From Oscillospiraceae bacterium (lineage in GTDB: Bacteria > Bacillota > Clostridia > Oscillospirales > Oscillospiraceae): a DNA stretch of 64,000 bases. Each line of letters starts with the position of its first letter. The first letter of the stretch is position 1. The translations under genes were made by a program, and so were the position numbers. The DNA lies in NCBI GenBank assembly GCA_017458335.1, contig JAFTFT010000029.1, positions 62,001 to 126,000 on the forward strand, in the 5' to 3' direction. The notes below the pieces were generated by a model that searched no databases, had not been told where the DNA came from, and saw only the letters and a program-made list of their open reading frames with translations. Of the stretch, positions 2,715 through 52,284 are shown piece after piece.

Positions 2715-3875
2715 TCAGCTCTGCGGGATCTCTTTCAGGTCCCCGCCGTGGGCGGAGGCAAAGTAGATGATATCGCTGATTTCCTTTTCCTGTCCGAACT
2801 GGACGGGGTTGATCAGCTGGCCGCCGAAGACGGTGGTCGCGGTCTGGCCCCCGTCCAGGGCATAGGCCTTCCAGCAGCCGCGCTTCAGCATGGCGTCCGC
2901 CTCCTGGCGCAGCGTCGCGAGATTATAATACTCCGTTCCCGGCTGGGCACAGTTGATGTTCATGGTGAGATAATGGTGCCGCTCCAGCAGCCCCAGCGCC
3001 GCCCGGGCATAGGTGTCCGTAACTTCGCCCCAGGGATAGAGCTCCGGCGTGACGTCCTTCCCCTCGTCGATCAGAACGGGTCCGAAGACCAGGGAAAACA
3101 GTACGTCGTTCTCCGCCGCGAACTGCTCCGCCTGGGCCTGTTCGGTAAACTGGTTCCGGTAGGAAAAGAGCATGTCCCCGTCCGAGGTGATGTAGCAGGT
3201 GTCGCAGGTCTTTGGATCGAAGCGGTAGAACTCCCGCTGGTAAATTCCGATTCCGCAGGCGCGGCCGTGGTAATAGAAGTCTCCGCCGAAGGCCAGCACC
3301 GCGTTGGCGTCCGCGGCAAACTGGCTGGTGGTCTTGAAGGCAAAGCTCCATAGCTCATCCGCGGAAATTTTGCGCCGCAGCTGGGAGCCGTCCGCAATGA
3401 TGACCTCGGAAAAGGTTCCGACCGCCTGCGCTTCCACTTCCTGCCACACGATGCAAAGGATGGTCTCGTCAAAATACCAGCGGACCGGGGTGTCGGGATA
3501 ACGGACGATTTCCGGATTCCAGAGCAGCGTCTTGTCTCCGATCAGCTCCTGCACCTCTTCCAGACGCAGAAAGCTGCTCAGATCGGAAGCATCCATGCTC
3601 TCGTGATAACCCTCCGGATCCGGGATCATTCCCCGGAGCGCGTTCTCCGGAATGGTCTGGACATACACCGGCTCCGGTGTTGGTGTTGGGGTTGGGGTCG
3701 GCGTCGGTGTCGGTTCTGGCTCCGCGGCGGTCGGTTTCGTTGACGGAAGCGGCGTCTCGTTCGGGCGCGTATTCATCACCCTGTTCAGACGCATGTTCTG
3801 ACTCACCACAAAGGCCAGGAACAAAAGCAGGACAATCAGGATCGGCAGCAAAATCAGATTGGTTCGTTTTTTCAT
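2715..3875 (-). CDS. Hypothetical membrane-tethered extracellular protein with Thr-Pro linker
   Basis: Protein of 386 residues that I do not recognise. A short basic start (MKKRTN) is followed by one hydrophobic segment (about residues 7-26), then a Pro/Thr/Glu-rich linker with a (PT)n run around residues 48-70, and a roughly 310-residue domain. There is no lipobox cysteine, so the hydrophobic segment is probably an uncleaved anchor or a Sec signal, with the domain outside the cell. The layout resembles the DUF6273 protein at 44691-45581 (anchor, Pro-rich stalk, domain), but no shared motif was seen. The DNA encoding the linker is a simple GGTGTT/GGCGTC-type repeat at about 3677-3718. A ribosome site (GAGGA) precedes the ATG. 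Confidence 0.75.
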   Translation of the reverse strand: MKKRTNLILLPILIVLLLFLAFVVSQNMRLNRVMNTRPNETPLPSTKPTAAEPEPTPTPTPTPTPTPEPVYVQTIPENALRGMIPDPEGYHESMDASDLSSFLRLEEVQELIGDKTLLWNPEIVRYPDTPVRWYFDETILCIVWQEVEAQAVGTFSEVIIADGSQLRRKISADELWSFAFKTTSQFAADANAVLAFGGDFYYHGRACGIGIYQREFYRFDPKTCDTCYITSDGDMLFSYRNQFTEQAQAEQFAAENDVLFSLVFGPVLIDEGKDVTPELYPWGEVTDTYARAALGLLERHHYLTMNINCAQPGTEYYNLATLRQEADAMLKRGCWKAYALDGGQTATTVFGGQLINPVQFGQEKEISDIIYFASAHGGDLKEIPQS

Positions 3876-47272: not shown

Positions 47273-48145
47273 TCAGAGCATGGCGCTTTCGAGGGAGGAC
47301 ACGGCCGTGATGTCGCGGGTCAGGGAACTGTCCGTGACGGCGGTTCTGGCCAGAACCATCTTTCCGGCCTCGACGGAGTGGGTCAGCCAGACGCTGCCGC
47401 CGATGACACAGTCGTTGCCGATGTGCGTATTGCCGCCAAGGATGGTGGCGCCGGAGTAGATGACCACCCGGTCGCCGATGTCGGGATGGCGTTTGATTCC
47501 CTTGACGAGGGTTCCGTCTTCCCCGACGTCAAAGCTCTTGGCCCCCAGGGTCACATGCTGATAGAGCTTGACATTCTCGCCGATGGTGGTGGTCTCGCCG
47601 ATGACGACGCCGGTGCCGTGGTCGATAAAGAACGAGTCGCCGATCCGGGCGCCGGGGTGAATGTCGATGCCCGTCAGGCGGTGGGCGTATTCGGTCATGA
47701 CGCGCGGCAGGGTCGGGATACGCTCCTGATACAGCACATGGGCCAGACGGTAGGTGCTGATGGCGAGAAAGGCGGGATAGCAGAGGATGATTTCGTCGAT
47801 GCTGCGTGCGGCGGGATCCCCGCGGTATGCCGCTTCCAGATCCGTACCGAGCTGGCGGCGGATCTCGGGGAGGCTTTCCAGCATGGTACGCACGACGCTC
47901 TCCGGCCTCGCGGACGGAGGCAGAACGACCCGCAGGCAGATATCCAGGAGCTCCGCCGCCTGACGGAGGGCGTCCTCCCGGCGGATCGGTGCCGCGGCAT
48001 GACGGGGAAACAGCGCCTCAATGAAAAGATCGGTCATCTCTGCCGCGTGTTGCCGAAAACCGCAGAAATCCTGAGCCTCCGGCTGCTCGGCCGCATCCAG
48101 ATGGGCAGCGGCCGACTCAATCAGGCGTTCCAGCGTTGTCCCCAT
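47273..48145 (-). CDS. cysE: Serine O-acetyltransferase
   Basis: First committed enzyme of cysteine synthesis, making O-acetylserine from serine and acetyl-CoA; 290 residues. An N-terminal helical domain (about residues 1-150) is followed by a left-handed beta-helix of hexapeptide repeats. Repeats include IDIHPGARIGDSFFIDHG, TGVVIGETTTIGENVKLYQ and the active-site HVTLGAKS. The ATG at 48145 starts two bases after the cysK stop, with GAGGTG upstream; a longer N-terminal extension would lie inside cysK and is rejected. It lacks the terminal Ile that mediates binding to CysK in many species (it ends in ML). It is expected to be controlled with cysK by the upstream attenuator. Confidence 0.93.
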   Translation of the reverse strand: MGTTLERLIESAAAHLDAAEQPEAQDFCGFRQHAAEMTDLFIEALFPRHAAAPIRREDALRQAAELLDICLRVVLPPSARPESVVRTMLESLPEIRRQLGTDLEAAYRGDPAARSIDEIILCYPAFLAISTYRLAHVLYQERIPTLPRVMTEYAHRLTGIDIHPGARIGDSFFIDHGTGVVIGETTTIGENVKLYQHVTLGAKSFDVGEDGTLVKGIKRHPDIGDRVVIYSGATILGGNTHIGNDCVIGGSVWLTHSVEAGKMVLARTAVTDSSLTRDITAVSSLESAML

Positions 48146-48146
48146 C

Positions 48147-49079
48147 TCACACCTCAAACATCGGGGAGGACAGGTAGCGGTCCCCTGTGTCCGGGAGCAG
48201 AACGACGATGGTCTTTTCCTTGTTCTCCGGCCGCTTTGCCAGTTCGACGGCGGCCCAGACCGCGGCTCCGGAAGAGATACCGACGAGGACGCCCTCCGTC
48301 CGGCCGATCTTTCGCCCGGTCTCGAAGGCAGCTTCGTTTTCGACGGTGATGATTTCATCATAGACGGCGGTGTTCAACACTTTCGGTACAAAACCGGCCC
48401 CGATGCCCTGAATCTTATGCGGGCCGGAGATGCCTCTGCTCAGTACCGGAGAAGAGGCAGGCTCTACGGCAACGATGCGGATCTCGGGATTCTTCGCCTT
48501 CAGATACTCGCCCACGCCCGTGATGGTCCCGCCGGTCCCCACACCGGCGACAAACAGATCGACCGTGCCATCCGTATCCTCCCAGATCTCCGGACCGGTG
48601 GTCTCGCGGTGGGCGGCGGCGTTGGCGGGGTTGCCGAACTGATCCGGAATAAAGGCATGAGGAATCTCCTTTGCCAGTTCTTCGGCTTTGGCGATGGCGC
48701 CCTTCATGCCGGCGGTGCCGTCGGTGAGAACCAGCTCCGCACCGTAGGCCTTCATCAGCTGCCGGCGCTCCAGACTCATGGTCTCGGGCATGACGATGAT
48801 CACGCGATACCCGCGGGCCGCGCCCACGGAGGCGAGACCGATGCCGGTGTTGCCGGAGGTGGGTTCAATGATCACGGATTCCTTTGTCAGGAGTCCTTTC
48901 GCTTCCGCGTCGTCGATCATGGCCAGGGCCACACGGTCCTTGACGGAACCGGCGGGGTTGAGATACTCCAGCTTGGCCAGGACCCGGGCTTCGAGACCCT
49001 CCGCCTGCTCCAGATGGGTCAGTTCCAGCAGCGGAGTTTTACCGATCAGCTGATCAACGGACGTAAAGATTGCCGACAT
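48147..49079 (-). CDS. cysK: Cysteine synthase (O-acetylserine sulfhydrylase)
   Basis: PLP enzyme of 310 residues that makes cysteine from O-acetylserine and sulfide. The PLP lysine is in [15 protein letters not shown]. Also visible are the substrate loop [12 protein letters not shown], the phosphate-binding loop [12 protein letters not shown] and the C-terminal [14 protein letters not shown]. The ATG at 49079 has AAGGAGG upstream; a longer in-frame extension would run into the terminator hairpin and is rejected. The gene begins about 20 bases after an intrinsic terminator (49098-49130), which lies after a Cys-rich leader peptide. Expression should therefore depend on cysteine supply. Confidence 0.96.
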
Positions 49080-49097: not shown

Positions 49098-49130
49098 TAA
49101 AAAACCGGAAGGCCCATCGGGCCTTCCGGT
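49098..49130 (-). terminator. Leader terminator (attenuator) of cysK-cysE
   Basis: ACCGGAAGGCCC (49104-49115) and GGGCCTTCCGGT (49119-49130) form a perfect 12-bp stem with a 3-base loop. On the minus strand the stem is followed by a T6 run (49104-49099). It lies between the leader peptide stop (49160) and the cysK ribosome site, so it terminates before the structural genes. Confidence 0.9.
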
Positions 49131-49159
49131 CGAACTTACACTGCAGTCTCCGGGAACGC

Positions 49160-49246
49160 TCAAACGGGCATGACAAAGCGCGTGCGGCCACAGCGCACGT
49201 TACAACACACACAACAGAAAACGAAAGTGCTGCAGGCTTTGTACAT
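49160..49246 (-). CDS. Cysteine-rich leader peptide of cysK-cysE
   Basis: A 28-residue open frame on the minus strand (ATG at 49246, TGA ending at 49160). It contains six Cys codons, at residues 5, 11, 12, 14, 15 and 19, including the run FCCVCC. GGAGG lies about 7 bases upstream of the ATG, and a consensus promoter lies 40 bases upstream. The message can form a hairpin over codons 16-22 (CGTGCG at 49181-49186 with CGCACG at 49194-49199) and a longer-range pair (ACAAAGC with GCTTTGT). A perfect terminator follows 29 bases after the stop. This is the layout of amino-acid attenuation: ribosome stalling at Cys codons when Cys-tRNA is scarce would prevent termination before cysK. I infer the mechanism; the parts are seen directly. 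Confidence 0.82.
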
Positions 49247-49285
49247 GAGAACCCTCCGAACGGACACGGAATGATTTGCTTCCTT

Positions 49286-49314
49286 TTTATACTACTTCAG
49301 GGATGATTTGTCAA
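49286..49314 (-). promoter_or_regulatory. cysK-cysE operon promoter
   Basis: On the minus strand, TTGACA (49314-49309), 17-base spacer, TATAAA (49291-49286). It is followed by the leader peptide and attenuator. Confidence 0.88.
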
Positions 49315-51135: not shown

Positions 51136-51245
51136 GTGCCAGACATCGTGCATTTTCGCTGCTTTTGTATATTCTGCATAAATCAAACATCCGATTTTTG
51201 TGATATTTTCCTATCCGGCGCGAGGAAAATCTTTTTGTATCCACT

Positions 51246-51261
51246 ATCAGACTTGTCTGAT
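51246..51261. promoter_or_regulatory. Candidate operator upstream of dctP2
   Basis: ATCAGAC-TT-GTCTGAT is a perfect 7-bp inverted repeat with a 2-base centre, 33 bases before the dctP2 start. Its core AGAC-NN-GTCT is shared with the palindrome at 30087-30098 next to the GntR gene. Confidence 0.6.
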
Positions 51262-51294
51262 GCGGAAATAAATCATTTTCTATGGAGGAAAAAC

Positions 51295-52284
51295 ATGAAA
51301 CGTACTCTCGCTGCTATCCTGTGCCTGGTTATGATCGTTGCGGTTGCCGCCGCGATGCCCATCAATGCCAGTGCTGCGAACACGGTCTACCTGACCCTCG
51401 CTCACAACATGGCTGAGGACCACGCCATCAACGTTGCGCTGACTGCCTGGGCCGAAGCGGTGGACGAAGCCACTGACGGCGCCATTGTCATCGATGTCAT
51501 GCCCGGCGGCACACTCGGCTCCGAAGCCGACTGCGTCAGCCAGATCCAGGCCGGCCAGCTGGAGATGACCAAGGTCTCTGCCGGTACCCTCTCCAACTTC
51601 AACAGCGCCTGGAACTGCGTCTCCGTCCCCTATGTTTTCAACGACAAGGATCATCTCTACAACGTGATGAACGGCGAAATCGGCCAGGATCTCTACAACC
51701 TGACTGCCGATGACGGTTTCATCGGCCTCGCCTGGCTCGAGTCCGGCACCCGCTGCTTCTACACCGCGAAGACCCCGGTTCGCACTCCCGCTGACCTCAA
51801 GGGTCTGAAGATCCGCACCATGGACAGCCAGATGGCCATCGACATGATGAATGCCTTCGGCGGTTCCGCCACGGTTATGGGCTACGGCGACATCTACACC
51901 GGCATGCAGCAGGGCGTGATCGACGGTGCTGAGAACAACATCACCGCCATGCGCGACCACGCCGACGTGACCAGCTACTACTGCTATGACGAACACACCA
52001 TGATCCCTGACGTCATCATCATCTCCACTGACATCTGGAACGAACTCACCGAAGAGCAGCAGCAGATCATGCGCGATACCGCAGCGGACATGGTTGCAAA
52101 CTATCGCGAGCTGTGGGCCCAGTTTGAGGAAGATGTGAAGGCCCAGGTCGAAGGCAAGGTTGAGTACGTCACCGATGTGGACAAGGCTGCCTTCCAGGAA
52201 GCCGTTCAGGGCATCTATGAGAACCTCGCCGCCAGCGATCCCGACACATACGCCTTTGTCGAGCGCATCCAGGCTGCCGGCTGA
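51295..52284 (+). CDS. dctP: TRAP transporter solute-binding protein DctP (cluster 2)
   Basis: Secreted receptor of 329 residues. The Sec signal (MKRTLAAILCLVMIVAVAAA, cleavage probably after ASA near residue 27) is followed by a DctP fold: GGTLGSEADCVSQIQAGQ, and the carboxylate-binding Arg segment LKGLKIRTMDSQM. No lipobox is present. TATGGAGGA supplies the ribosome site. Its partners downstream (dctQ, dctM, two GH31 glycosidases, uxuA, uxuB, kdgK) imply a uronic-acid-containing ligand, possibly a glycoside of a sugar acid. Sequence similarity to the cluster 1 DctP is clear but moderate, so the two likely take different ligands. Confidence 0.93.
   Translation: MKRTLAAILCLVMIVAVAAAMPINASAANTVYLTLAHNMAEDHAINVALTAWAEAVDEATDGAIVIDVMPGGTLGSEADCVSQIQAGQLEMTKVSAGTLSNFNSAWNCVSVPYVFNDKDHLYNVMNGEIGQDLYNLTADDGFIGLAWLESGTRCFYTAKTPVRTPADLKGLKIRTMDSQMAIDMMNAFGGSATVMGYGDIYTGMQQGVIDGAENNITAMRDHADVTSYYCYDEHTMIPDVIIISTDIWNELTEEQQQIMRDTAADMVANYRELWAQFEEDVKAQVEGKVEYVTDVDKAAFQEAVQGIYENLAASDPDTYAFVERIQAAG

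Follow-up and report, generated by a model that had tools for sequence, protein, structure and literature searches.

Candidate cysteine-codon attenuator before cysK–cysE and its family of leaders in one gut Oscillospiraceae genus

What controls cysK–cysE in this Oscillospiraceae bacterium? T-boxes, S-boxes and CymR are the textbook means of sulfur amino-acid control in Clostridia. For the minus strand upstream of cysK in the window (the whole stretch of 64,000 nucleotides analysed), a preliminary description listed a consensus promoter, a 28-codon ORF with a GGAGG site and six Cys codons, an internal 6-bp hairpin and a perfect 12-bp terminator just before the gene, and proposed that together they form a classical ribosome-mediated attenuator. 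All of these elements can be read directly from the DNA (Table 1), with the refinement that the terminator stem has 13 pairs, 12 Watson–Crick and one G-U. The Cys codons of the leader ORF are codons 5, 11, 12, 14, 15 and 19, the last of which lies in the hairpin loop. A GTG at 49267 (35 amino acids) is a possible alternative start, and the ATG has the better Shine–Dalgarno (SD) spacing. The promoter is absent from a simple promoter scan because that scan requires T at the last −10 base.

Table 1. Elements of the leader and the genes behind it, in window coordinates
Feature	Position	Strand	Details and basis
−35 box TTGACA of dedicated leader promoter	49309..49314	−	read from sequence
−10 box TATAAA, 17-nt spacer from −35	49286..49291	−	read from sequence
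Shine–Dalgarno GGAGGG of leader ORF	49252..49257	−	read from sequence
Leader ORF, 28 codons	49160..49246	−	ATG 49246, stop 49162–49160
Pause-type hairpin, 6 bp, 7-nt loop	49181..49199	−	CGUGCG/CGCACG, 49199–49194 with 49186–49181
Predicted RNA polymerase pause	49169..49170	−	U-1 49170, G+1 49169; 10 nt after hairpin, G-10 at 49179; column counts and hisL criteria (PMC9291695)
Hinge, putative antiterminator strand GCGUUCCCGG	49150..49159	−	directly 3' of stop codon; complementarity and folding
Intrinsic terminator	49099..49131	−	stem 49131–49103, T tract 49104–49099; sequence, helix covaries in relatives
cysK, cysteine synthase A, proposed controlled gene	48147..49079	−	ATG 49079; TIGR01139 456.3 bits, cut-off 350.95
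cysE-type serine acetyltransferase	47273..48145	−	ATG 48145; NF041874 EpsC 151.5 bits, cut-off 150

This architecture is far beyond chance. Among 1042 nested small ORFs of 20–40 amino acids in the window, at least five Cys occur in six, and six Cys occur only in the leader ORF and its longer GTG-start form; the leader RNA fold lies 4.6 sd below dinucleotide shuffles. The strongest evidence is the conservation of the leader in related genomes. The genes behind it are also largely as first described: CysK scores above its equivalog cut-off, and the product of the gene that follows, which starts one base after the cysK stop, is only just above the EpsC serine acetyltransferase cut-off and below that of the TIGR01172 cysE model (160.7 versus 210.65 bits). 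The two genes probably form one operon. A gene for a DctP-type TRAP transporter binding protein lies near this operon (51136–52284, plus strand).

A T-box or a metabolite riboswitch could, in principle, account for control of cysK–cysE. The genome that carries the window does contain T-boxes (seven matches, two of them above the cut-off), but by inspection six of the seven ORFs behind these matches look non-Cys and one is ambiguous. No Rfam 15 family, the T-box (RF00230) included, reaches its gathering score in the window, none does so in 20 loci of the genus (mostly cysK), and no T-box reaches that score in the 20 scanned of 29 cysK loci from the family sample. A single SAM riboswitch occurs among these 20 family loci (L159, minus strand). 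We consider riboswitch control of cysK–cysE extremely improbable; the leader belongs to a family specific to this lineage, with no match in Rfam 15.

How widely is the leader shared? A CysK match was present in 60 of 61 genus genomes searched, and 50 CysK-type loci of the genus were read. A covariance model (R1) built from 14 aligned Cys-ORF leaders gave 38 matches of 54 bits or more across 102 genus genomes, in 30 of them, with four such copies in the window's own genome. At E ≤ 0.01, R1 matched 51 of the 102, some by chance, the remaining half giving no match; cysK without the attenuator also occurs in the genus. Outside the genus, strong matches were found in three of 400 family genomes (G417 twice, G349 and G448) and in one further genome among 394 at the order level (G586, of another family, before metY), and none beyond the own genome appeared among 391 at the class level, in samples that overlap and with the stricter filters used for these large searches. 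The set of strong leaders discussed below thus comprises 38 from the genus and four from the family, 42 in all, some near-identical; 14 were used to build R1 and 28 are independent of model building. Weak matches of 27–31 bits also occur in the family and order (G102, G127, G249, G251, G422, G483, G560 and G781). There were also 34 weaker matches within the genus. Sixteen of the 26 that were fetched have Cys- or Met-rich leader ORFs, and ten are chance terminators (L215, L223, L224, L226, L228, L231–L233, L235 and L237); four of the eight left unfetched are the antisense of terminators already counted.

The preliminary description had suggested searching related genomes for short Cys-rich ORFs followed by a terminator upstream of cysK, and had named lack of conservation as one outcome that would count against attenuation. 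That outcome was not observed: in 30 of the 102 genus genomes, ORF, hairpin, terminator and promoter recur together, before cysK or other sulfur amino-acid genes. The family sample supplied 29 cysK loci, 27 of which belong to other genera, and no leader of this type was found in them; Cys-containing short ORFs at three of these loci (L159, L160 and L165) were judged unrelated. A pattern scan of named genomes matched 19 contigs. Their labels name Oscillospiraceae, Ruminococcaceae, Eubacteriaceae, Eubacteriales, Clostridiales or Clostridia bacteria, in most cases as metagenome-assembled, and several mention rumen or other ruminant gut samples. On these searches the candidate attenuator appears to be mainly confined to one genus rather than spread through Firmicutes at large.

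Within the strong set the leader is conserved as a unit. All 42 leaders have an exact TTGACA, followed in 41 by a 17-nt spacer and a TATAAA-like −10 box (40 begin TATA, one reads TACAAA, and L080 has none), and the start codon lies 30 nt upstream of the paired Cys codons in 38 of 42. The relatives retain a CC..RC core in the leader peptide. Among 34 distinct leaders of equal length, the stop codon is always at the same place (TGA in 27, TAG in six, TAA in one), and the CC codons alternate between TGT and TGC with few exceptions. A terminator hairpin can be fitted in all 42. In most relatives the inner hairpin has 7 bp and an 8-nt loop; 97.9% of its cells are paired, with double-sided changes at five of seven pairs, and the terminator helix shows such changes at eight of 13. 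None of 500 shuffles reached any of the five measures of helix covariation, in an alignment that was fitted to the structure and so leans towards it; both helices also appear in a MAFFT alignment. Taken together, these patterns suggest that leader translation and RNA structure are both under selection.

The spacing behind the inner hairpin points to its role. Counting from the end of its 3' arm, the 34 equal-length leaders have G at position 2 in 31 cases and T at position 11 in every case; at position 12, 20 have G and 14 have A. Criteria for the hisL pause, with a G-10 Y-1 G+1 consensus, are given in a published study (PMC9291695). The 8-nt loop of most leaders, the 10 nt from stem to pause, G-10 and U-1 all agree with those criteria, and the consensus is followed except where +1 is A; the stem differs from that of hisL, with 7 bp here (6 bp and a 7-nt loop in the window) instead of 5. 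From these sequence criteria we infer that the 6-bp hairpin of the window is best read as an RNA polymerase pause hairpin.

This bears on a different possibility, that the peptide itself is the sensor. Arrest peptides such as TnaC and SpeFL offer a comparison, and a conserved C-terminal R-F-x-x-P-x might in the same way stall the ribosome in response to a metabolite. C-terminal residues are indeed kept, with Pro as the penultimate residue in all 34 distinct equal-length leaders, but the conservation tracks nucleotides: the Pro codon is CCC in 32 of 34, other C-terminal residues vary while the nucleotides stay, and a pause signal, which fits the invariant U and the G lying ten bases ahead of it, would account for much of the apparent peptide conservation at the C terminus. 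Moreover, residues change where helix pairs do not (in L082 both Arg CGC codons have become Tyr TAC and the helix is intact), L003 and L074 end differently, and the Cys content tracks gene function, as described below. An arrest peptide therefore seems improbable. A slow Pro-x-stop may hold the ribosome on the hinge.

The genes behind the 42 strong leaders are cysK in 20 cases, a gene we take to be of B3/4 type (the NCBIfam search gave no hit) followed by cysK in two, a metY-type sulfhydrylase in 13, an amino-acid ABC permease in four, and a symporter-like protein, an ABC binding protein and a contig end in one case each, where one example of each name was checked and the others were assigned by likeness. 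The metY name rests on a 45-residue protein start; the permease gave hits below cut-off, a cystine permease among them, and the symporter-like and binding proteins gave hits below cut-off only. By inspection, no gene start behind the other leaders resembles cysS, and the gene of the window is cysK. The symporter-like protein, of 462 amino acids and perhaps a cystine transporter, follows a copy in the own genome (L095, G000:C42:31246-31362).

Weak R1 matches extend this series. They include Met-rich leader ORFs with a terminator (L213, L214, L216, L219–L222, L225, L227, L229, L230 and L234), which precede metN or metQ where the contig shows the gene, as with MTRTISNSMMMGMMCMCSMCMMMRAKIAPLTDSIPA and MANRRCNMMMPAMRMWMYMCMMRRACGCSLSAS; one MetN and one MetQ-like protein were checked by HMM, both falling below cut-off, and for L213 and L219 the metN/metQ gene is assumed from the likeness of the leader. 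The mean of internal Met minus Cys is −1.55 before cysK (n = 20), +1.93 before metY (n = 14, one a weak match) and +5.78 before metN/metQ (9 of 12 found), and the Mann–Whitney comparisons with cysK give p = 3.7e-5 for metY and p = 2.2e-5 for metN/metQ, uncorrected for relatedness. The codon content of the leader thus appears to follow the function of the downstream gene.

It is here that another explanation is best weighed, namely that the terminator is constitutive or under protein control, for example by an Rrf2/CymR-type regulator at the promoter, and that the Cys-rich ORF is a by-product. One Rrf2 regulator does score above cut-off in the own genome, and several cysK promoters of the genus combine an ACATA..GGTAGG-like element with what looks by eye like the start of a divergent Rrf2-like gene. 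A by-product, however, would not be expected to conserve its start and stop, its Cys codons, the hairpin and the distance to the pause before different genes, nor to shift to Met codons before Met transport genes, and we regard this explanation as very improbable. As a separate observation, the ACATA...GGTAGG-like element lies near −10 and is often seen in attenuator-free cysK promoters (L002, L005, L007, L009 and L018–L020).

An attenuator also needs an antiterminator, and here the preliminary description had found no convincing pairing by eye. In a scan of the leader by 10-mers, those beginning at the stop codon or immediately 3' of it stood out as complementary to the 5' arm of the terminator: −9.59 versus −6.34 kcal/mol for shuffles at offset +3 from the stop and −7.83 versus −5.38 kcal/mol at offset 0, the next best offset differing from shuffles by only −0.74 kcal/mol. 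None of 500 shuffled hinge sets matched the observed complementarity, and on the alignment 88.0% of hinge–terminator arm cells are paired, versus 38–68% when the two are slid. Covariation does not prove the pairing. Covariation of the hinge with its own leader's terminator arm was looked for and not found (14772 of 20000 permutations were equal or better), 80 of 500 shuffles reach the observed pairing on the alignment, and single-leader spacer folds of the 42 leaders have a mean z of −0.7; the lack of own-leader specificity and the weak spacer folds may be expected because all leaders share one consensus.

Folding in alternative states, which the preliminary description had recommended, gave a similarly divided answer. 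We folded the transcript only up to the terminator 5' arm, took at least three expected hinge pairs as the criterion, and assumed a ribosome footprint reaching 12 nt past the first A-site base. At least three pairs were reached by 33, 37 and 31 of the 42 leaders when the ribosome stood at the first, second or third Cys codon, respectively (five fell below three at the second), versus four with naked RNA and none with the ribosome at the stop, the last because the assumed footprint covers the hinge. The window leader forms this stalled pairing only in part, with 3.3 expected pairs for a ribosome at the second Cys codon and 6.5 for one at the third conserved Cys codon; CCGG of the hinge and GGCC beside the hairpin loop together pair with both halves of the terminator arm. 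When the RNA is naked, the hinge instead has at least three expected pairs around the leader SD in 30 of 42, a count that includes artefactual zeros for L093, L101 and L080, which have longer ORFs; the mean is 4.50 versus 1.81 for shuffled hinges, and the predicted partner in the window lies just upstream of the SD. Thus, hinge pairing depends on ribosome position in these models. In the complete fold at equilibrium, however, the full terminator dominates whatever the ribosome state (mean 0.95–0.96), and read-through must therefore be kinetic. Complementarity and folding together support an antiterminator of 7–10 nt just 3' of the leader stop that would pair with the terminator 5' arm.

Given the conserved unit, the covariation, the pause geometry and the state-dependent folding, the original proposal of classical ribosome-mediated attenuation is supported, and we consider it very probable that the cysK–cysE leader is a transcription attenuator sensing charged tRNA-Cys. 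In such a scheme, transcription would start near 49279, and RNA polymerase would pause near 49170 at the hisL-type hairpin while a ribosome on the leader ORF catches up. When Cys-tRNA is plentiful, the ribosome would reach the stop and cover the 10-nt hinge, so that the terminator forms and cysK–cysE is off. When it is scarce, the ribosome would stall at the Cys codons and leave the hinge free to pair with the terminator 5' arm while the 3' arm has yet to be transcribed, giving read-through. On ribosome-free RNA, pairing of the hinge around the leader SD region would favor termination.

The leader is probably a modular variant of known systems. Like the trp and his attenuators of Proteobacteria, it has a potential leader ORF that repeats codons for the operon's own amino-acid product, an intrinsic terminator between that ORF and the first gene, a pause hairpin as judged by loop, spacing, G-10 and U-1, and a putative antiterminator predicted to compete with the terminator. 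It differs in using Cys instead of Trp or His, in its Oscillospiraceae host lineage, and in an antiterminator strand that lies behind the stop codon and is predicted to pair around the leader SD in naked RNA. Cys-rich leaders have other precedents as well, among them the mycobacterial polycysteine uORFs. In Actinobacteria, short Cys-rich ORFs lie upstream of cys operons, where the Cys runs are near the stop and the published report describes no conserved terminator hairpin and suggests Rho (PMC1262725); here, the stop comes 10–16 codons after the conserved Cys codons and is followed by an intrinsic terminator. The uORFC-8-2 element of Rhodobacterales, upstream of cysS and predicted to act by ribosome-mediated attenuation, is similar in having tandem Cys codons at 14–15, two stems and a terminal U run (PMC8632094). 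It differs in controlling a tRNA synthetase gene in alpha-proteobacteria rather than cysK, and its first stem contains the tandem Cys codons, which here precede the stem (PMC8632094). The His leader peptide of bacilli comes close as a leader-peptide attenuator of Firmicutes that replaces T-boxes, but it has His codons before hisS/hisZ paralogues (PMC2965389). Among the matches listed in the open literature, which covers few subscription papers and little of bioRxiv, we found no account of this leader family, of Cys leader attenuation in Clostridia or of Met-codon attenuators. As to the suggestion of an undescribed mode in this lineage, leader peptides already have a precedent in Firmicutes, the His leader of bacilli (PMC2965389).

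A second device appears at many of the same genes. In 26 of 50 genus loci, a mini-ORF ending in Arg (CGA) and Cys (UGU) lies 57–83 nt before cysK, with CGA as codon 7 in 23 of 26 (examples are L031 at G000:C16 near 3337–3424, L005, L023 and L034). It sometimes stands behind the attenuator: the second cysK of the own genome has both, the window cysK the attenuator only. In a register-free duplex test, CGAUGU and the following bases pair with the SD and start region of the next gene at their own locus better than with those of other loci (−12.83 versus −10.68 when permuted, reached by none of 10000). A fixed-register covariation count was negative (62.4% paired, like shuffles, 321 of 500); bulges shift the register. 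The device is likely a translational attenuator whose codons pair with the SD and start region of the next gene. Peptides of a similar RC type occur at other spacings in family cysK loci (L145, L147 and L151).

A model of this device (R2) also picks up mini-ORFs that end in Arg (CGA) and Trp (UGG) and lie upstream of TrpX-like, trpB and TrpB-like genes (L194/L198, L200, L202, L203, L211, L238, L241, L242, L248, L249 and L251). Counting identical sequences once, the fetched loci hold 42 UGU cases before cysK and 11 UGG cases before Trp genes, in a scan biased by loci having been fetched for CysK or a model match. An HMM check of four among the 11 Trp proteins placed trpB and TrpB-like above cut-off and two TrpX-like below. 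Six of 59 candidates were set aside as chance matches or duplicates (L225, L239, L150, L020 with CGGTGG, L148, and L207 with CGCTGT), and the R2 matches at E ≤ 0.01, in 58 of 102 genomes, include chance matches (L208, L245–L247, L250, L252–L257 and others).

On balance, we think it rather probable that one gut Oscillospiraceae genus has moved much of its Cys and Met control, and part of its Trp control, onto two codon-sensing RNA devices. The first would be a pause-equipped attenuator whose regulatory codons shift from Cys before cysK, through a Cys/Met mixture before metY, to Met before metN and metQ. The second would be a mini-ORF of eight codons, M-x5-Arg(CGA)-[Cys UGU or Trp UGG]; its last codons would be part of a helix hiding the ribosome site of the next gene, and its sensing codon would be swapped to match that gene. 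With both devices in tandem before one cysK, a single amino acid would act on transcription as well as translation. A Clostridia lineage would then be running a group of its sulfur amino-acid genes by leader-peptide attenuation. The natural swaps from Cys to Met and from Cys to Trp by downstream gene would amount to an experiment of nature on codon-specific sensing, and an unusually clean one; they make the mechanism testable with simple reporters. Finally, the isolated strong match in G586 (L141), before metY and with the leader MHPSIGNSMMMCNMRSKMRMCFAVPI, lies in another family, and horizontal transfer of leader and gene together is one possible origin.
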